A stretch of DNA of 64,000 nt from Halanaeroarchaeum sulfurireducens (GTDB lineage: Archaea; Halobacteriota; Halobacteria; Halobacteriales; Halobacteriaceae). Position 1 is the first letter of the stretch, and every line of letters starts with the position of its first letter. A program made the position numbers and the translations under genes. The notes beneath the pieces are model-generated. The model had not been told where the DNA came from. It made no database searches and saw only the letters and a program-made list of their open reading frames with translations. The stretch is taken from the NCBI RefSeq assembly GCF_001011115.1, contig NZ_CP008874.1, positions 124,001-188,000 of the forward strand, in the 5' to 3' direction. Positions 1 through 8,565 of this stretch are shown here, piece by piece.

Positions 1-3000
1 TTCGATCCGGACTTCGCGGACGACATCGTCAGCTACCCAGACCGCTTTCGCGACGCCGCTGAGGAGGCCCTCCGCCTCTACGACCTCCCGGTGGACGTCT
101 CGCTCGCGAACGCCCACGTCCGCATCGAGAACCTGGGCGAGATAACGGAGATCCGCGCGATCAGGTCCGACCACATCAACACTCTCGTGAGCCTGCGCGG
201 CATCGTCCGCAAGGCCACCGACGTCCGGCCGAAGATCCGCGAGGCGACGTTCATCTGCCAGCGCTGTGGCGCCGAGACCGTCGTCCCCCAGACCGACGCC
301 GGCTTTCAGGATCCCTACCAGTGCGAGTCCTGCGAGCGCCAGGGCCCGTTCCAGCTCGAGGCCGAGCAGTCGGAGTTCGTCGACGCCCAGAAACTCCGCG
401 TTCAGGAGAGCCCCGAGGGCCTCGGCGGCGGCGAGACGCCCCAGGCCGTCGACATGAACGTCGAGGACGACCTCACCGGCGAGGTCACGCCCGGCGATCA
501 CGTCGTCGCGACCGGCATTCTCCGGCTCGACGAGGGCAAAGAGCAGAGCGACTCGCCCATCTTCGACGTCTACCTCGAGGGGGTGTCCCTGGAGGTCGAG
601 GACGAGGAGTTCGAGGAGATGGACATCACCCAGGACGACAAACGCGAGATCATCGAACTCTCCGAGTCGGAGGATCTCTACGACCAGATCGTCGACTCCA
701 TCGCCCCCGCCATCTACGGCTACGAGCAGGCCAAACTCGCGATGGCCCTGCAACTGTTCTCGGGGGTCACCAAGCACCTCCCCGACGGCTCCCGGATTCG
801 CGGTGATCTGCACATGCTCTTGATCGGGGACCCTGGTACGGGGAAATGTGTTGCTGGGGACACGAACGTCACGCTCGCTGATGGAACCCGTCGACCGATT
901 CGCGATATCGTCGAGTCGTCCCTCACGGATCCGAAACCGGTCGACGATGGCGTCTATCAGGAGGTGGATATCCCGCTTCCGACGATGGACGATTCGGGCG
1001 ACATTACGACTGGTCGGGCCACGAAGGTCTGGAAACGGGAAGCACCGGACGAAATGTATCGCATCCACCTCGCCGACGGGACTTCGATGGAGGTCACCCC
1101 ATCACATCCGCTGTACGTCCAGGAAAACGGCTATCCGACGGCGGTCAAAGCAGAGGAATTGACAGATGGCACGTTCGTGGCCACCGTCGACGAAGTCTCC
1201 GCTGACGGTGGTGCGCGGATCCGCCGACCCAAACCGGCCGTCGCGGGTATTTCGACTGGAGCACAGTCATCCACGAACTCGTTCGACACGATTGAGGTAT
1301 CATCATCGATCGGCTGGACCCAAATTGAGGACATCGAGACTGTACAGCCGGGCGAGGAGTGGGTGTACGACCTCGAAGTCGCGGACACGCACAATTACCT
1401 CACAGAACACGTCGTCTCGCACAACTCCCAGCTGCTCCAGTACATCCGCAACATCGCCCCGCGCTCCGTGTACACCTCCGGGAAGGGAAGTTCGTCTGCA
1501 GGGCTTACCGCAGCGGCGGTGAGGGACGACTTCGGCGACGGCCAGCAGTGGACCCTCGAGGCCGGTGCGCTCGTGCTCGCCGACCAGGGCATCGCCGCAG
1601 TCGACGAACTCGATAAAATGAGATCGGAGGACAGGTCGGCAATGCACGAGGCGCTCGAACAGCAATCCTATCACCCGAATTCGAAGATATTGCTGGCCGA
1701 CGGTCGGCGCGAGAAAATCGGCGACCTGGTCGACGAACGGATGGCTGCAACACCGGATGATGTCGTCGACGGCGTTGATTGTGAGATTCTGCCCGTCGAC
1801 GATCTCCGGGTCCACTCCGTCGATATGAATGCGCAGGAGTTACAGACGCTTCCAGTGAACCGCGTTAGCCGTCACGAGGCCCCTGACGAATTCATTCGGG
1901 TGATGTTCTCGAATGGAAACGACGTTCTCGTCACTCCCGAGCACCCGATGTTCGTCTGGCAAGAGGACGATATTGGAACGATAGATGCGAGGCAGGTGGA
2001 CGTGGGGGCAACGGTCCCAGCACCACCGAGACCAGTTGGTCCGACCGCGGAAAACCCCCTCGCTCTCGATGGCGGACACCCTGATTCAGGAGAGGAAACT
2101 TCCTCACTACGACGACATCGCGTCACCGACGTCGAAACGGTACCGAACGAGGGCGAGTACGAGACGGATTGGGTGTACGACGTTACCGTCGAACCAAATA
2201 ACACGTTCGTCAGCCAGGGCGTCGTCTTGCACAACTCCATCAGCATATCCAAGGCCGGCATCAACGCCACCCTGAAAGCGCGGTGTTCGCTCCTTGGCGC
2301 GGCGAACCCCAAGTACGGCCGATTCGACCAGTACGAGTCCATCGGGGAGCAGATCGACCTCGAACCCGCGCTCATCTCGCGGTTCGATCTCATCTTCACC
2401 GTCACCGACCAGCCCGATGCCGAACGAGACGCGGAACTCGCCGATCACATCCTCCAGACCAACTACGCCGGCGAGCTGAACACCCACCGCACGAACGTGA
2501 CGACCTCGAACGTGACCGACGAGGAGGTCGACGGCGCCACCGAGACGGTCGAACCCGCCATCGACGCGGACCTGCTGCGCAAGTACGTGGCCTACTCCCG
2601 CCGGAACACCTTCCCGACGATGACTCCTGCGGCCCGGTCGGCCATCGAGGACTTCTACGTCGACCTGCGCTCGCAGGGGGAGGGCGAAGACGCCCCGGTG
2701 CCGGTGACCGCCCGCAAGCTGGAAGCGCTGGTGCGCCTGGCCGAGGCGAGCGCCCGCGTGCGGCTGTCGGATACCGTCGACGAGAGCGACGCCGAGCGGG
2801 TCATCGAGATCGTCCGCACCTCGCTGCAGGCCGTGGGCGTCGACCCGGAGACCGACCAGTACGACGCGGACGTGATCGAGACGGGCACCTCCAAATCCCA
2901 GCGCGACCGCATCAAGAACATCAAGGGCCTCATCGAGGAGATCGAAGCCGACTTCGATGAGGGGGCGCCGGTCGACGAGGTGCTAGCTCGTGCGGAGGAG

Positions 3001-3099
3001 GTCGGCATGGACCGGAGCAAGGCCGAACACGAGATCGAAAAGCTCAAACAGCGCGGCGAGGTCTACGAACCGAGCACCGAACACCTGCGGACGACGTGA
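1..3099 (+). CDS. mcm: MCM replicative DNA helicase with two inteins (5' end outside window)
   Basis: This is the hexameric ATP-driven helicase that unwinds DNA ahead of the replication fork. The reading frame is open from base 1, so roughly the first 50 residues lie outside; the GTG at position 91 is internal. Visible host-protein motifs are a C4 zinc finger (CQRC...CESC), Walker A GDPGTGK, Walker B DELDKM and the SRFDLIF arginine-finger segment, then a C-terminal winged-helix-like tail. The coding sequence is interrupted in frame by two inteins (847-1425 and 1666-2235). Joining the flanks restores an ordinary MCM core (GTGK-SQLLQY and HEALEQQ-SISISKAG). The family assignment is certain; that splicing is active is inferred from intact splice-junction residues. 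Confidence 0.97.
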   Translation, partial: FDPDFADDIVSYPDRFRDAAEEALRLYDLPVDVSLANAHVRIENLGEITEIRAIRSDHINTLVSLRGIVRKATDVRPKIREATFICQRCGAETVVPQTDAGFQDPYQCESCERQGPFQLEAEQSEFVDAQKLRVQESPEGLGGGETPQAVDMNVEDDLTGEVTPGDHVVATGILRLDEGKEQSDSPIFDVYLEGVSLEVEDEEFEEMDITQDDKREIIELSESEDLYDQIVDSIAPAIYGYEQAKLAMALQLFSGVTKHLPDGSRIRGDLHMLLIGDPGTGKCVAGDTNVTLADGTRRPIRDIVESSLTDPKPVDDGVYQEVDIPLPTMDDSGDITTGRATKVWKREAPDEMYRIHLADGTSMEVTPSHPLYVQENGYPTAVKAEELTDGTFVATVDEVSADGGARIRRPKPAVAGISTGAQSSTNSFDTIEVSSSIGWTQIEDIETVQPGEEWVYDLEVADTHNYLTEHVVSHNSQLLQYIRNIAPRSVYTSGKGSSSAGLTAAAVRDDFGDGQQWTLEAGALVLADQGIAAVDELDKMRSEDRSAMHEALEQQSYHPNSKILLADGRREKIGDLVDERMAATPDDVVDGVDCEILPVDDLRVHSVDMNAQELQTLPVNRVSRHEAPDEFIRVMFSNGNDVLVTPEHPMFVWQEDDIGTIDARQVDVGATVPAPPRPVGPTAENPLALDGGHPDSGEETSSLRRHRVTDVETVPNEGEYETDWVYDVTVEPNNTFVSQGVVLHNSISISKAGINATLKARCSLLGAANPKYGRFDQYESIGEQIDLEPALISRFDLIFTVTDQPDAERDAELADHILQTNYAGELNTHRTNVTTSNVTDEEVDGATETVEPAIDADLLRKYVAYSRRNTFPTMTPAARSAIEDFYVDLRSQGEGEDAPVPVTARKLEALVRLAEASARVRLSDTVDESDAERVIEIVRTSLQAVGVDPETDQYDADVIETGTSKSQRDRIKNIKGLIEEIEADFDEGAPVDEVLARAEEVGMDRSKAEHEIEKLKQRGEVYEPSTEHLRTT
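847..1425 (+). other. Mini-intein 1, inserted in the MCM P-loop
   Basis: This in-frame protein-splicing element is 193 residues long and sits directly after the Walker A lysine. It begins with Cys (CVAGDTNVTLADG, block A), has a block B VTPSHPLYV with the usual Thr and His, a block F VYDLEVADTHNY, and ends VVSHN before a Ser in the host protein. No LAGLIDADG or HNH motif is visible between blocks B and F, so it looks like a mini-intein without a homing endonuclease. Its codons use A and T more freely than the surrounding mcm sequence, as expected for an acquired element. Confidence 0.93.
1666..2235 (+). other. Mini-intein 2, inserted beyond the MCM Walker B motif
   Basis: This second in-frame splicing element is 190 residues long, placed after HEALEQQ and before SISISKAG. 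It starts with Ser rather than Cys (SYHPNSKILLADG). Block B is VTPEHPMFV and the end is VVLHN followed by host Ser, so both nucleophiles would be serine. Block F reads VYDVTVEPNNTF, with Asn where the first intein has His. No endonuclease motif is seen. It differs clearly in sequence from intein 1, so it is probably an independent insertion rather than a duplication. Confidence 0.92.
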
Positions 3100-3519: not shown

Positions 3520-3858
3520 GTGCTGCTCGTGGTCACCTACTCGACCGACGCCCGGGGCAGTCTCCGAAACACCTGTCGGGCACACCCGGAGGCTGTCGTC
3601 CGTCGTTTCGGCCGAGCGGCGCTCCTACAGGAGACGGAACTCGGGGCGCTACTGGCACTCCGGCTCCGGGGGAAACACGGGGAGGCGGTCCAGATCGAAC
3701 GGACGACGCCCCTGAACGAGTACGCGGACGTCCCCGACAGCGTTCGCGAGGCGGCGGAGGCGTTCGAGGAACGCGACCGTCCGAGCACGTCGTACGCGAA
3801 CTTCGTCGCGGGAACCGACCATCCGGCGGTCGAGGAACTTCGTGATGTCGACCTATGA
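3520..3858 (+). CDS. Small soluble protein of the mcm-ParA cluster, unknown
   Basis: I do not recognise this 112-residue protein. It starts with GTG at 3520, supported by the TATA box 30 nt upstream and by the lack of any leader. The N-terminus looks like a beta strand (MLLVVTYS), followed by an Arg-rich helical region with RNTCRAHPEAVVRRFGRAAL and an acidic tail ending EELRDVDL. The stop codon overlaps the next start (ATGA), so translation of the two is probably coupled. A nucleic-acid-related role is possible from the basic patch and the location, but this is a guess. Confidence 0.8.
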   Translation: MLLVVTYSTDARGSLRNTCRAHPEAVVRRFGRAALLQETELGALLALRLRGKHGEAVQIERTTPLNEYADVPDSVREAAEAFEERDRPSTSYANFVAGTDHPAVEELRDVDL

Positions 3859-4679
3859 AGGTGGCCCTGAACGGGACCGTCCGCCAGGGCCAGGCGGTTG
3901 ACCTTCGAGACGCACCGCTCGAAGCGGCCCGGATCGTGGCCGCCATCCGGGATCCCGACGGGCCGCTGGTTAGCTGTCCGCCTCCGGGACCGGTCCACTC
4001 GTTCGTCGGTCACGTGGAATCCGGGATGCACCTCTCGCTCCGGGCTGCCCTGGCCGCCGCGGCGCGCTCGCGAGCAATTCGATCGGAATACGACGACGCC
4101 ATCGACGAGCTCGACCGCAGGATCGAGGCCATCGCGGTCGAACAGGTCGATCTGGCCTCGGCCCGTCGGCGGGCGGCATCGGCGGGCGCAGACGTGGCGG
4201 CTCTCCGCGAACGTGTGGCGCGGCTGCGCGGTCGGTTGGAGGCAGATCGGGAGGCGGGCCGGGAGTCGGGCGAATCGGAGGCGGAGTTACGGGACGCGAT
4301 CGCAGCCCTTTCCGAGGCGGAGACCGACCGACTTGCGGCTGAACAGGCGCTCGTCGCCGCCGAACGGGACGCACGGGCGGCGCGTGACGCCCGCGACCGT
4401 CGGCTGTCGCTGGTCGACGATCGTGACAACCTGGCCAGACAGGCGCGGTCGGCGCTCGCGAACCGGGAGTATCCGCGGTTTCGTCGCGCGCTCGCGTCCC
4501 TGCCGGTCGAGGGCCGGGCGGGCGACGGCCCGGGTGAGTTCGACGGGGCGCCCGCGGCCGCCGCGCTGGCCGTGGCGCGCATCGCGCGGCTCCACGCGCC
4601 GGTCGTTCTCGCGGACGGCCCCTTCTCGAGCCCCGTCGTCGCTCGGGCCGCCCTTCACGCACCGGTCGTGCTCGTGTGA
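3855..4679 (+). CDS. Coiled-coil protein of the mcm-ParA cluster, unknown
   Basis: The protein has 274 residues. A short N-terminal beta-rich domain (about 1-60) is followed by a long charged helix from roughly residue 70 to 205. That helix has heptad-like Ala/Leu/Arg/Glu pattern (for example VAALRERVARLRGRLEADRE), typical of a coiled coil. A C-terminal Ala/Val-rich domain ends APVVLV. There is no ATPase motif, so it is not an SMC protein, but the shape suggests a structural or adaptor protein. Its ATG overlaps the preceding stop by ATGA. The neighbouring ParA ATPase would be a plausible partner; that is inference from position only. Confidence 0.8.
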   Translation: MKVALNGTVRQGQAVDLRDAPLEAARIVAAIRDPDGPLVSCPPPGPVHSFVGHVESGMHLSLRAALAAAARSRAIRSEYDDAIDELDRRIEAIAVEQVDLASARRRAASAGADVAALRERVARLRGRLEADREAGRESGESEAELRDAIAALSEAETDRLAAEQALVAAERDARAARDARDRRLSLVDDRDNLARQARSALANREYPRFRRALASLPVEGRAGDGPGEFDGAPAAAALAVARIARLHAPVVLADGPFSSPVVARAALHAPVVLV

Positions 4680-4713: not shown

Positions 4714-5124
4714 ATGTACCTGCGAGCAACGGTTCACGAGGCGGATGGCGTGACGCTCGTCTCGCTCGTCGTCCGCAACGACGCGGACGAACCGCGACGG
4801 TTCCGCGTGGCCAACCGCCTGGACGGTCCGGTCTGGCCGCCGCGCCGCCACGGGACGGTCGCGGCGGGCTGGGACGAGGCGGGATACGAGGGCGTTCTGG
4901 CGGCCAGTGGCACGCGTCCGCTCGGCTACGCGACGCGCGGACCGCCCGCCGATCCGCCTGCCGAACTCGTGTGGTCGGAGCCGGCCGGAGCCTCCGAACC
5001 CGAGGCGACGAGCGCCGAGGCGATCATCCGGTCGTTCGGCGATCCCAGACCACCCGCGGCGGTCGCGATCCCGGCGTACCTTCGGCCATGGGACGAACGC
5101 GAATCGGGGGACGACCGACCGTGA
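4714..5124 (+). CDS. Small beta-rich protein preceding ParA, unknown
   Basis: I do not recognise this 136-residue protein. It opens with an amphipathic beta pattern (MYLRATVHEADGVTLVSLVV) followed by VRNDADEPRRFRVANRLDGP. This resembles an immunoglobulin-like fold in which Asn/Asp-rich turns join strands. A Pro-rich linker and an acidic tail come after. There is no signal peptide. The stop (TGA 5122-5124) overlaps the GTG start of the ParA gene, implying coupled translation and so a shared process. GGAGGT sits directly against the ATG, too close to act as a normal ribosome-binding site. Confidence 0.8.
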   Translation: MYLRATVHEADGVTLVSLVVRNDADEPRRFRVANRLDGPVWPPRRHGTVAAGWDEAGYEGVLAASGTRPLGYATRGPPADPPAELVWSEPAGASEPEATSAEAIIRSFGDPRPPAAVAIPAYLRPWDERESGDDRP

Positions 5125-5795
5125 TTCTCAGCGTGTGTGGGGGAAAGGGTGGCGTGGGCAAGTCCACCGTCTCGCTGGCCCTGGGCCACGTTCTGGATGC
5201 GGTGGTCGTCGACGCGGATTTGACCATGGCCGACCTCCCGGTCGACGCGGGCCCCACGCTCCAGGACGTGTTGGCGGACAGGGCCCGAGCCGTCCCGGCG
5301 GTCCGCGATGGCTGGGCGGTCGCCGTTCTCCCAGCCGCTCGCTCGCTTACCAGTGCGCATGCCAGCGATCCGGCATCGCTCGTGGACGTGCTGGCCCGTC
5401 TGGACGAGGCGTACGGGACGGTCGTCGTCGACGGACCGGCGGGGCTGGGTGCCGACGCGGCCCTCCCGATGACGGTGGCTGACGCCTGCGTGCTCGTGAC
5501 GACGCCGGCGACCGCCGCCGTCGCGGATGCGGTGCGCACGCGGGAGCTCGCCCGGGAACTCGAGGCCGGCATCGGCGCGGTCGTGCTCAACCGCGTCCGT
5601 GACCGCCGTCCCCCGATCGAGCGGCGGCTCGGGGGCCCCGTCGTGACGGTTCCGGAGTCTGGCGCGGTCGCGACCGCGACGACCCGTGGTGTCCCGGTCA
5701 CGCTACACGCACCGGACGCCACGGCGGCAGAACGGTTTCGGCAGTTGGCCGGGCGACTCAATCGCGTAACGCGACGCTCGCGCTTCGAACGGTGA
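5121..5795 (+). CDS. ParA/MinD-family ATPase
   Basis: This P-loop ATPase of 224 residues belongs to the ParA/MinD group, whose members dimerise with ATP on DNA or membrane to position cargo. The deviant Walker A CGGKGGVGKST is intact, with both signature and catalytic lysines. VVVDADLTMADLP and VVVDGPAGLG supply the Walker A' and B aspartates. The GTG at 5121 is chosen because the P-loop starts eight residues later, as in the family, and because it overlaps the previous stop (GTGA). No MinD-type amphipathic C-terminal helix is obvious. The 3' end overlaps the convergent TFB gene by 38 nt. Confidence 0.9.
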   Translation: MILSVCGGKGGVGKSTVSLALGHVLDAVVVDADLTMADLPVDAGPTLQDVLADRARAVPAVRDGWAVAVLPAARSLTSAHASDPASLVDVLARLDEAYGTVVVDGPAGLGADAALPMTVADACVLVTTPATAAVADAVRTRELARELEAGIGAVVLNRVRDRRPPIERRLGGPVVTVPESGAVATATTRGVPVTLHAPDATAAERFRQLAGRLNRVTRRSRFER

Positions 5796-6612
5796 CCACG
5801 CTGACATCGGCCACCTCGGCTGCGGCCGCCTGCGTTATTTGTTCGTCCGTCTCCTTCGCCGCGAGGTAGAGCCCCGCCGCAGCGACGCCGCCCGGATTTC
5901 GGCCGCCGACGGCCGCCCCAGTTTCCGCGACGAGCGCACGGGCGTCTCGTTCGACCGTCGCCGAGAGGCCGAGTTCGGTGGCGAACCGTGGCAGGTAGGT
6001 CCGTGGCGGGATGGGTCCGGTCGATAACCCGAGGTCGCGGTTCATCGCATCGTAGGCCACCTGCAGCTCGCGCTCCTCGGCACGGGCGACGTCCGCGATC
6101 TCGCCGATCGTCCGTGCCAGCCCGTTCGTCCGGCAAACCGCGTAGACGGTCGCCGCAGCGAATCCTTCGAGGGAGCGACCGCGCAACAGGTCCCCGTCCT
6201 GGGCGCTGTCGAAGAGGACGCAGGCCTGATCGCGGACGCTCCGGGGCAACGAGAGCGCGCCGGCCAGCCGGCGAATCTCGGTGAAGGCGTAGATCTGGTT
6301 TCGTTCCGCGGTCGAACCGACTCGGGCGCGGTCGTGTTGGGTTCGCATGCGAGCGACCTGCCGCCGCTTGCGGCCCTTGAGCCGGGTCGAGCGCCCGATC
6401 TCCGTCGAGAGGCCGCGGTCGTGGCGCGAGCGCGTCAGCGGCGCGCCGGTCCGCTCGCGGTTCGGTCCGTCCGAGAAGTTTCGCCACTCGGGGCCGTGGT
6501 CGATGGGGTCCTCCGCCACGACGAGTCCGCACTGCTGGCATACCGTCTCGGTTCCGTCGGTTCGCAACGCGCCGGCACACTCCGGACACGAGTTCGACTG
6601 GGTCGTGCTCAT
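5758..6612 (-). CDS. tfb: Transcription initiation factor TFB (TFIIB homologue), short form
   Basis: TFB bridges TBP-bound promoter DNA and RNA polymerase. The 284-residue protein has an N-terminal zinc ribbon (CPEC...CQQC), a B-reader segment (GPEWRNFSDG...RTGAPLT) and two cyclin repeats (about 100-190 and 195-284). The linker between the B-reader and the first cyclin repeat is shorter than I expect: the usual Asp/Lys-rich stretch before the KKR-like region is reduced. It may be one of several TFB paralogues, as haloarchaea carry many. The start at 6612 is preferred because a TATA box at 6641-6649 lies 33 nt upstream and would fall inside a longer reading frame. Confidence 0.92.
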   Translation of the reverse strand: MSTTQSNSCPECAGALRTDGTETVCQQCGLVVAEDPIDHGPEWRNFSDGPNRERTGAPLTRSRHDRGLSTEIGRSTRLKGRKRRQVARMRTQHDRARVGSTAERNQIYAFTEIRRLAGALSLPRSVRDQACVLFDSAQDGDLLRGRSLEGFAAATVYAVCRTNGLARTIGEIADVARAEERELQVAYDAMNRDLGLSTGPIPPRTYLPRFATELGLSATVERDARALVAETGAAVGGRNPGGVAAAGLYLAAKETDEQITQAAAAEVADVSVVTVRSASVALRD

Positions 6613-6640
6613 CACGATTCGAACTTCGTCCCGAACGCCC

Positions 6641-6649
6641 ATTTAATAG
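6641..6649 (-). promoter_or_regulatory. TATA box of tfb
   Basis: CTATTAAAT read on the minus strand is centred about 33 nt before the ATG at 6612. Confidence 0.6.
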
Positions 6650-6786: not shown

Positions 6787-7302
6787 ATGGGGCTGTCCGA
6801 CATCGCGGAGGGGCTCACGGTCACGGAGCGCCAGCGCGACCGCGGCGTCGCGACCGTCGACCGGACCGACCCCACGTTGAATGCGACCGTCGCCCGGTAC
6901 GCGGCCGGTCTCCCCTGCGAGGTAGAGCCCGCAGCGATCCTGGTGGACGAGTACGTGGGCGGTGCGAGTGTGGGAGATGCCGCCGCGAACGCGGGCCTGC
7001 CCGCGATCACCGGCGCGAAGGTGCTCTTCCGACTGGGGTTCGATGGCCTGTCGCCGCTCTCACCGCTCGGCCGCGAGGTCCTCCGCGACTGGCTCGACGG
7101 GGAGATCGGTCGCACGGACGCCCGGGCGCTCGCGGACGCGAGCGAGGCGGAATTCGCCCTTGCAACGTATATCGAGACCCACGAACCGCTTTCGGGCGCC
7201 CGCGAAGGCGTCGCCACCGCCCTCGGGTCCGACACCGACGCATCCGTCGCCAAGCGGGACGCCCTCGCAGACACGATGAGCGACGTGGGCGACCTCCGCT
7301 GA
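6787..7302 (+). CDS. Conserved-looking haloarchaeal protein, unknown
   Basis: I do not recognise this 171-residue acidic, mostly helical protein. A central segment (VGDAAANAGLPAITGAKVLFRLG) resembles a helix-turn-helix in rhythm, with small residues at the turn, so DNA binding is conceivable but not shown. No Cys or membrane segment is visible. The ATG at 6787 fits the TATA box 30 nt upstream; earlier in-frame starts would include promoter DNA. It lies between the TFB gene (divergent) and a MinD-like gene (convergent), an arrangement that may be conserved. Confidence 0.75.
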   Translation: MGLSDIAEGLTVTERQRDRGVATVDRTDPTLNATVARYAAGLPCEVEPAAILVDEYVGGASVGDAAANAGLPAITGAKVLFRLGFDGLSPLSPLGREVLRDWLDGEIGRTDARALADASEAEFALATYIETHEPLSGAREGVATALGSDTDASVAKRDALADTMSDVGDLR

Positions 7303-7337: not shown

Positions 7338-8093
7338 TTAGCCGAGTCGTCGACGCATCCGTTTCATTACCGTGTCCCCGCCGTGGTCGGACGCGACCGC
7401 GAGTTCGATCTCGAAGAGCCTCGCCGCCGTCTCCACGACCGCAGCAACGGCGTCACCGCTCCCGTCGACCGTTACCGGACGGTCCGGGGCCGGTTTCGCC
7501 GGGAGTGTGGGGATCGTGGCGTCGGCGTCGCCCGGGGCCGCCGACGGCGTGGTTCTCGTCGCGATGGTCACGTCGAGGTCCGCCCCGACGTCATCGAGTC
7601 GGCCTCGCGTCCGCTGGAGGGCGTCGACGCCCCGGTCGGTCGCCGGGAGGACTGCGGCGACCCGATCCGCCGCGTCCACTCCCGCGACAGCCTGGTTCGA
7701 GGCGATCGGCGGCACGTCGAGGAGGACGTGGTCGAAGGAGTCAGTCGCTTCGCGCAGGCGGTCGCCGACCCGCTCGGCGGCTGCCACCGTCTTCGCCTCG
7801 GCGACGTCGACGAAGGGGGCGAACGCCGGGAGGACGGACAGCCGTCCCTCGCCCGGCACGGCCCACGGTATCGTCGCGTCGGTGACGGCGATCTCCTCGT
7901 CGGTGAGCACCGACGTCACGTCGGGATCGATGCGGCCCCCGACCGACTGGGAGAGCCCTTGCGTGGCGAAATTCAGATCGAAGACCAGGACCGAACGGCC
8001 GGCCCGCGCCAGCGCGCCAGCCAGTTCGACTGCAGTCCGCGTGGTGCCGGCGCCACCCGTGACGCCGACCAGCGCGGCGGTGCGTACGTGCAT
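7338..8093 (-). CDS. MinD/ParA-like protein with degenerate P-loop
   Basis: The 251-residue protein keeps the MinD/ParA fold pattern: an N-terminal strand-loop-helix, VLVFDLNFATQGLSQ (position of Walker A') and FDHVLLDVPPIASNQA (Walker B). The P-loop reads GVTGGAGTTRT. Thr stands at both the signature-lysine and catalytic-lysine positions of the usual KGGxGKT, so ATP hydrolysis is doubtful. It may bind nucleotide without turnover or act as a partner of the intact ParA 2 kb away. The C-terminus is basic (MKRMRRRLG) and could touch membrane or nucleic acid. A TATA box at 8118-8126 supports the start. Confidence 0.85.
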   Translation of the reverse strand: MHVRTAALVGVTGGAGTTRTAVELAGALARAGRSVLVFDLNFATQGLSQSVGGRIDPDVTSVLTDEEIAVTDATIPWAVPGEGRLSVLPAFAPFVDVAEAKTVAAAERVGDRLREATDSFDHVLLDVPPIASNQAVAGVDAADRVAAVLPATDRGVDALQRTRGRLDDVGADLDVTIATRTTPSAAPGDADATIPTLPAKPAPDRPVTVDGSGDAVAAVVETAARLFEIELAVASDHGGDTVMKRMRRRLG

Positions 8094-8117: not shown

Positions 8118-8126
8118 TCAAAAATC
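8118..8126 (-). promoter_or_regulatory. TATA box of the MinD-like gene
   Basis: GATTTTTGA on the minus strand is centred about 29 nt before the ATG at 8093. Confidence 0.55.
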
Positions 8127-8139
8127 ACCCGACAGCGAG

Positions 8140-8565
8140 CTACTCGCCGACCGCGGCTGCGATGTGTGCGGCGATGTCGTCGAGATCGCCCTCGTCGAGG
8201 TCGGGGCGCGAACCCACCACGCCGTGAATCGGTCCGCCGCCGTCGCCAGCGAACCGGGGGATGACGTGGCCGTGAACGTGATCGACCTCCTGGCCGGCGG
8301 CGGCCCCGTTGTTGAATCCCACGGTCGAACCGTCCGCGTCGACGGCCGCCTCGATCGCGGGGACCAGCCGGTGGAGCAGCGAGAAGACGGCCCGCCCCTC
8401 CGCAGGCGGGAGGTCGTCGAGCGTCTCGTAGTGGTCTTTCGGGACGACGAGCGTGTGCCCCGGCGCGAGCGGGTTCGCGTCGAGGAACGCGAGTGCGCTC
8501 TCGGTCTCGGCGACGACTCTCGCGTCCGCAGCACCGTCGGCGATGGCACAGAAGATGCAGTCCAT
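8140..8565 (-). CDS. HIT-family nucleotide hydrolase/transferase
   Basis: Proteins of this family cleave nucleoside phosphoramidates or dinucleoside polyphosphates through a His nucleophile. The 141-residue protein shows the whole HIT fold: an N-terminal CIFCAIADG zinc-type motif, LAPGHTLVVPKDHYETL in the core, and the active-site triad HVHGHVIPR near residues 96-104. It is cytosolic, with no signal peptide. The start at 8565 gives the standard N-terminus; longer frames upstream run through the ileS promoter. A 15-bp palindrome at 8591-8605 overlaps its likely promoter. Confidence 0.93.
   Translation of the reverse strand: MDCIFCAIADGAADARVVAETESALAFLDANPLAPGHTLVVPKDHYETLDDLPPAEGRAVFSLLHRLVPAIEAAVDADGSTVGFNNGAAAGQEVDHVHGHVIPRFAGDGGGPIHGVVGSRPDLDEGDLDDIAAHIAAAVGE

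Follow-up and report, generated by a model that had tools for sequence, protein, structure and literature searches.

A conserved haloarchaeal family of degenerate ParA/MinD-fold proteins without Walker A lysines, co-occurring with DUF7858 and DUF7856

The window analysed here, a stretch of 64,000 nucleotides from Halanaeroarchaeum sulfurireducens (contig NZ_CP008874.1), carries a block of genes in the order MCM, DUF7854, DUF7855, DUF7856, DUF7857, a ParA-like gene, TFB, DUF7858, a ParA/MinD-fold gene whose product has no lysine at either Walker A position (hereafter the lysine-less gene and protein), HIT, and then an ORF read as IleS-type. The MCM helicase gene (91-3099 of the window) contains two intein splicing stretches (Pfam Intein_splicing). 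The other features that concern us are, in window coordinates:

3855..4679, forward strand: DUF7856 protein, with a long charged stretch that looks coiled-coil-like when the sequence is read by eye
4714..5124, forward strand: DUF7857, often paired with MinD1
5121..5795, forward strand: intact MinD-like ATPase, probable MinD1 orthologue, P-loop GGKGGVGKST
5758..6642, reverse strand: TFB (TFIIB-like), between MinD1 and DUF7858
6787..7302, forward strand: DUF7858 protein, convergent neighbour of the lysine-less gene
7338..8093, reverse strand: lysine-less ParA/MinD-fold gene, 251 amino acids, identified by Pfam, an AlphaFold2 model and the homologue alignment
7704..7724, reverse strand: Walker B, LLDVPPI, containing D126
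7791..7793, reverse strand: K101, a lysine of a helix region
7953..7979, reverse strand: switch-I stretch DLNFATQGL (residues 39-47), with Asn at position 41
8037..8066, reverse strand: degenerate P-loop GVTGGAGTTR (residues 10-19, G10 to R19)
8120..8124, reverse strand: predicted T-rich TATA-like box, 27-31 bases before the ATG
8140..8565, reverse strand: HIT-family protein, upstream of the lysine-less gene

The sequence-only reading of this locus held that the P-loop of the protein has lost both lysines, that the rest of the MinD fold including the Walker B DVPP is kept, and that an intact ParA lies 2 kb away. All of this stands. The sequence itself and an HMM alignment with A. fulgidus MinD (1hyq) confirm the first point, positions 12 and 17 falling on the signature lysine and the P-loop lysine, respectively. 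As for the fold, the protein matches Pfam AAA_31 (E 8.6e-11, 42.5 bits against a gathering cut-off of 27), CbiA is also above its cut-off, and AAA_31 is matched at E≤0.01 by 30/30 members of the first family alignment (A1). The alignment-based AlphaFold2 model (pLDDT 92.2, pTM 0.89) finds P. furiosus MinD (1g3q) as its top structural match (Z 26.1, rmsd 2.8, 221 residues), followed within two Z units by another archaeal MinD and by Soj (2bek, Z 24.8), and FleN-FleQ entries are also among the matches; the Walker B motif reads LLDVPP. The ParA at 5121-5795 is real, with its GGKGGVGKST. A third change goes beyond that reading: position 41, which the alignment to A. fulgidus MinD pairs with the second Asp of DxD, is replaced by Asn. 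This second Asp of the switch-I DxD is a catalytic residue in MinD and Soj.

Thus, the protein shares with archaeal MinD and ParA-Soj, the deviant Walker A ATPases, the fold, the Walker B motif and the glycines and Thr of the P-loop, while it differs from them in having other residues in place of the two Walker A lysines and of the switch-I Asp, and in scoring far below the NCBIfam cut-offs of MinD and ParA. It reaches 30.7 bits with archaeal MinD TIGR01969 (cut-off 201.75), 20.9 bits with the KGGVGR-motif variant ATPase NF047398 (cut-off 90), and 27.6 bits with TIGR03815, the septum site-determining protein Ssd of the TadZ/CpaE/Ssd group (cut-off 154.45). A C-terminal amphipathic membrane-targeting helix gave no family-wide signal, the hydrophobic moment of the last 16 residues being about that of shuffled sequences (mean z 0.16, n=150; z > 1 in 29% of the 150 members).

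Is the loss of the lysines a peculiarity of one genome? In a sample of 292 Halobacteria genomes, searched at E≤1e-10, 178 have a homologue of the lysine-less gene, and when 196 genomes sampled from the phylum were searched at E≤1e-15, all 23 matches belonged to the order of the window's own genome. Residues were counted in 150 homologues gathered without using the motif (30 loci and 120 regions), and the P-loop was examined in these and three more, 153 of the 178; a further 80 named loci had been found by motif patterns and were excluded from the lysine counts. None of the 153 P-loops has a Lys at either Walker A position. A homologue with normal lysines, which would have made the window's protein a one-off, is therefore absent from these P-loops, and a one-off mutation or a sequencing error is ruled out. 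The Thr residues in place of the lysines are not invariant: Lys is absent from both positions throughout, but Thr itself varies (position 12 is Thr in 99, Ala in 30 and Val in 21; position 17 is Thr in 129, Ala in 20 and Ser in one). Around these two positions, G13, G14, G16, T18, D39, G46, D58, D126 and N133, the last only a few residues past Walker B, are found in 150/150, E23 in 149 and R19 in 148; position 41 is Asp in only seven. Two loci (L179 and L189) have the P-loop KATGGAGATR, whose Lys is at position 10, two before the signature-lysine position and not a Walker A lysine position.

Eight genomes without the lysine-less gene were searched again with the family alignment at E≤1e-4. Nine matches came out, six with a normal KGGVGK[ST] P-loop and one a remnant in genome G012, and in the remaining two (L308, L310) a script found no P-loop pattern. 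Between homologues of 80-97% identity, dN/dS has a median of 0.19 and a maximum of 0.45 (174 non-independent pairs), which is purifying selection. Together with the promoter-like box described below this rules out a pseudogene for the family, though a truncated remnant does exist in G012. The protein thus belongs to a conserved family of degenerate ParA/MinD-fold proteins in haloarchaea. A limited literature search found no description of it.

Upstream of the start codon, 73 regions could be compared, namely that of the window and those of 72 of the 80 named loci (the other eight had no clear start or motif and were set aside). A or T is found at -28 in all 73 and at -27 in 72, while -60 to -41 is only 30% A/T, and the placement of this TATA-like box supports the assigned start codon. 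HIT is found in 77 of the 80 named loci, within 100 bp in 44 of these 77. The conserved TATA-like box before the lysine-less gene weakens the idea that this gene is only a member of a HIT operon, even with HIT so close by, and suggests that it has its own promoter and is probably leaderless.

Can such a protein still be an ATPase? Judging from its residues, absence of hydrolysis is plausible, and only plausible because TadZ of Eubacterium rectale reportedly hydrolyses ATP without either lysine: excerpts of PMC10482377 describe its activity as kept, a lysine of the adjacent helix compensating for the loss, and describe ATPase activity also in lysine mutants of MSMEG_3743, a mycobacterial MinD. 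In the same manner, the lysine-less protein could bind ATP and hydrolyse it slowly, with R99 or K101 from another helix, or R19, replacing the P-loop lysine. Those two precedents favour such an active enzyme, as do the conserved R19 and the presence, in 147 of the 150 homologues, of a basic residue at position 99, 101 or 102, a candidate substitute for the P-loop lysine; but the catalytic Asp is lost as well in 143 of them, and K101 is not invariant. As the sole replacement lysine K101 was given up: it is invariant in the first 30 sequences, but present in 128 of 150 in the wider set. On balance, we think an active enzyme of the TadZ kind somewhat unlikely. For the haloarchaeal MinD2, excerpts of a paper (one of PMC11621097 and PMC11588486) describe motility as mildly affected by K16A and strongly affected by the Walker B mutation; according to the same paper, the functions of MinD1-3 were previously undescribed. 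The roles of lysine and Walker B are thus separable in a haloarchaeal MinD.

At the opposite extreme, nucleotide might no longer be bound at all, leaving the fold as a protein-binding platform only. The disappearance of both lysines together with the switch-I Asp would fit such a state, but 148-150 of the 150 homologues retain GGxG-T-R, D39 and D126, more constraint than a structural loop seems to need unless partners read that surface. We consider this unlikely.

Which protein, then, does the lysine-less one work with? The sequence-only reading had pointed to the ParA 2 kb away, with which it could pair, or which it could antagonise, as a relative that binds nucleotide but does not hydrolyse it. 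According to excerpts of the literature, MCM of Haloferax volcanii is HVO_0220 (PMC3972481) and its MinD1 is HVO_0225 (PMC11621097, PMC11588486). The five-gene spacing from MCM is the same in the window, and the ParA at 5121-5795 is therefore probably the orthologue of Haloferax MinD1; by the gene order from HVO_0220 to HVO_0225, the lysine-less gene would be about HVO_0228. DUF7856 and DUF7858 are both found in H. volcanii, a tractable model organism.

The next-best relative of the lysine-less protein in its own genome reaches only E 0.0126. In a 31-row tree, built from 12 members of the lysine-less family, nine other ParA-like proteins of the window's genome including MinD1, and ten further MinD1 copies, the lysine-less family forms one clade (100/99) and MinD1 another (100/99 against each other), and MinD1 clusters with four other MinD-like proteins of the window's genome (97/96), apart from the lysine-less family. 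The same genome encodes on contig 2 (29452-30153, L260) a ParA-like protein with SESGGTYKTT near its start, which has no signature lysine and has a Lys before TT.

MinD1 was called at E≤1e-38, a threshold picked by eye, and DUF7857-MinD1 cassettes in genomes that lack the lysine-less gene are counted as MinD1. At this threshold, a MinD1-like match occurs in 163 of the 178 genomes with the lysine-less gene, and a MinD1-like gene lies within 6 kb in 36 of the 80 named loci, some of which are cut by contig ends. These numbers favour pairing, but against them stand 43 genomes with MinD1 only and 15 with the lysine-less gene only (71 have neither; phi 0.576, a descriptive value that ignores kinship), as well as loci showing both separations and the grouping of MinD1 with the four other MinD-like proteins. 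Of the 15 genomes without a MinD1 match, 13 were inspected around the lysine-less gene, DUF7856 or both, and no MinD1 was seen there. The lysine-less gene, DUF7858 and DUF7856 are kept without MinD1 in G018, G276 and G182 (loci L292, L296 and L297), and at L295 and L300 these three and DUF7857 are kept while MinD1 is absent. Conversely, 36 f3 genomes have a MinD1 match without the lysine-less gene. Two genomes belonging to one f3 genus (L280, L286) have MCM-DUF7855-DUF7857-MinD1-TFB intact but are without DUF7854, DUF7856, DUF7858 and the lysine-less gene, a pattern that implies gain or loss in this genus at separate sites flanking the retained genes. MinD1 is therefore ruled out as an obligate partner, and a dead subunit pairing with or antagonising it appears to us quite improbable.

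At four loci (L281, L283, L284, L285), DUF7857 and MinD1 form a two-gene cassette in whose surroundings no further gene of the block was detected; one of these is a second copy in a genome that carries the full block as well. Four cassette copies, one of them this second copy of a full-block genome, fall inside the MinD1 clade of the tree.

Tight co-occurrence is instead seen with DUF7858 and DUF7856, which are present in 176 and 174 of the 292 genomes, respectively. The lysine-less gene and DUF7858 are found together in 174 genomes, the gene only in four, DUF7858 only in two and neither in 112 (phi 0.957); for DUF7856 the corresponding numbers are 172, six, two and 112 (phi 0.943). Both phi values are descriptive, since relatedness of species is ignored. 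Positions of the lysine-less gene and DUF7858 were compared in 26 of the 174 genomes, chosen by eye mostly because they looked unlinked. The two genes are apart in all 15 g11 genomes compared, 11 times at 103-129 kb, twice on different contigs and twice close to the opposite ends of the sequence as supplied; in eight further genomes the distance is between 23 kb and 633 kb, or the two genes lie on separate contigs. G036 carries TFB-DUF7858-lysine-less gene-HIT about 123 kb from its DUF7854-56 genes.

There are exceptions. The lysine-less gene is without a DUF7858 match in G056, where a DUF7858 remnant of 24 bits is found, in G123, whose only DUF7858 match is below the cut-off and elsewhere, and in G189 and G266. 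A DUF7856 match is also missing in G120, whose copy of the lysine-less gene is on an 11-kb contig, and in G239. In G186, DUF7858 is at a contig end, so that a gap in the assembly probably explains its missing partner. In G054, DUF7858 and DUF7856 are only partial or weak, and no member of the lysine-less family is present. It is to be noted that co-losses in genomes where the genes are linked are not independent, since one deletion removes several genes of the block, as in G012.

Two kinds of rearranged locus were observed. In G189 and G266 (L288 7158-8767, L287 6579-8190), two adjacent ORFs, which read like recombinases, replace the DUF7854-DUF7858/MinD1/TFB block, the lysine-less gene being intact. 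In G012 (L309, about 1450-1620), what is left of DUF7854 behind MCM continues directly into the first ~37 codons of the lysine-less gene in antisense, and this junction is a block-deletion scar.

The co-occurrence, together with separation from MinD1 in both directions, indicates that the lysine-less gene is tied in function to DUF7858 and DUF7856, and not to MinD1 alone. What could these two proteins contribute? The DUF7858 model is all-helical (pLDDT 81.6). At E≤1, HTH_28 matches 19 of the 48 members examined (best 7.8e-4, a weak match) and Bag6_BAGS, as weakly, 24; the structure search gave weak HTH-like rows, with a best Z of 5.3, below the reliability level of the tool, and Foldseek E values of about 1 or more. 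DUF7858 is thus helical in the model and possibly an HTH DNA-binding protein. A ParB-like fold is not claimed for it: the first Foldseek rows are ParB/Spo0J, but at E of about 1 and probability ≤0.16. In the DUF7858 protein of the window, T74, A76, K77 and L79 are invariant in one predicted helix, near G58 and G83 (n=48). DUF7856 appears coiled-coil-like.

The best explanation in our opinion, which we hold with moderate confidence, is that the lysine-less protein is a scaffold or regulator of ParA fold, non-cycling or weakly cycling and not a motor, acting with DUF7858 and DUF7856. It would serve as a platform of ParA type, either fixed or exchanging only slowly: with help from R19 and from a basic residue between 94 and 102, the conserved loop may still hold nucleotide or phosphate, and the protein would drive no fast ATPase cycle. 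The platform may recruit DUF7858, and DUF7856 may provide a coiled-coil tether. This mechanism is drawn from the features of DUF7858 and DUF7856 and from analogy with ParA-ParB and FleN-FleQ, in which ParA-fold proteins hold ParB or FleQ. More tentatively, we propose a three-component haloarchaeal system that resides in the MCM/MinD1 neighbourhood and is genetically separable from MinD1, in which the lysine-less protein would act with DUF7858 and DUF7856 as a permanent scaffold that runs no ATPase cycle.

How does such a protein compare with known systems? TadZ of E. rectale, likened here by description only, is likewise a member of the ParA superfamily that has lost both lysines, as excerpts of PMC10482377 describe; no Tad pilus gene is among the neighbours identified at lysine-less loci. 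McdA, which positions carboxysomes, belongs to the ParA family, and excerpts of PMC8262871 describe beta-McdA type 1 as without the signature lysine; McdA chains are among the best PDB sequence matches of the lysine-less protein, but those chains retain the P-loop lysine (GGQGKT). MinD1-4 of H. volcanii are of the same superfamily, and the gene at about HVO_0228 would be none of these four named MinDs. Loss of both lysines has a reported precedent in TadZ; the assignment of DUF7858 and DUF7856 as putative partners is new.

ParA/MinD proteins are textbook examples of positioning switches driven by ATP. A family in which selection preserves the fold and most of the P-loop, while the lysines and the Asp are gone, would show the fold working without the usual cycle, and the co-occurrence gives three uncharacterised haloarchaeal families, the lysine-less one, DUF7856 and DUF7858, a shared and testable role.
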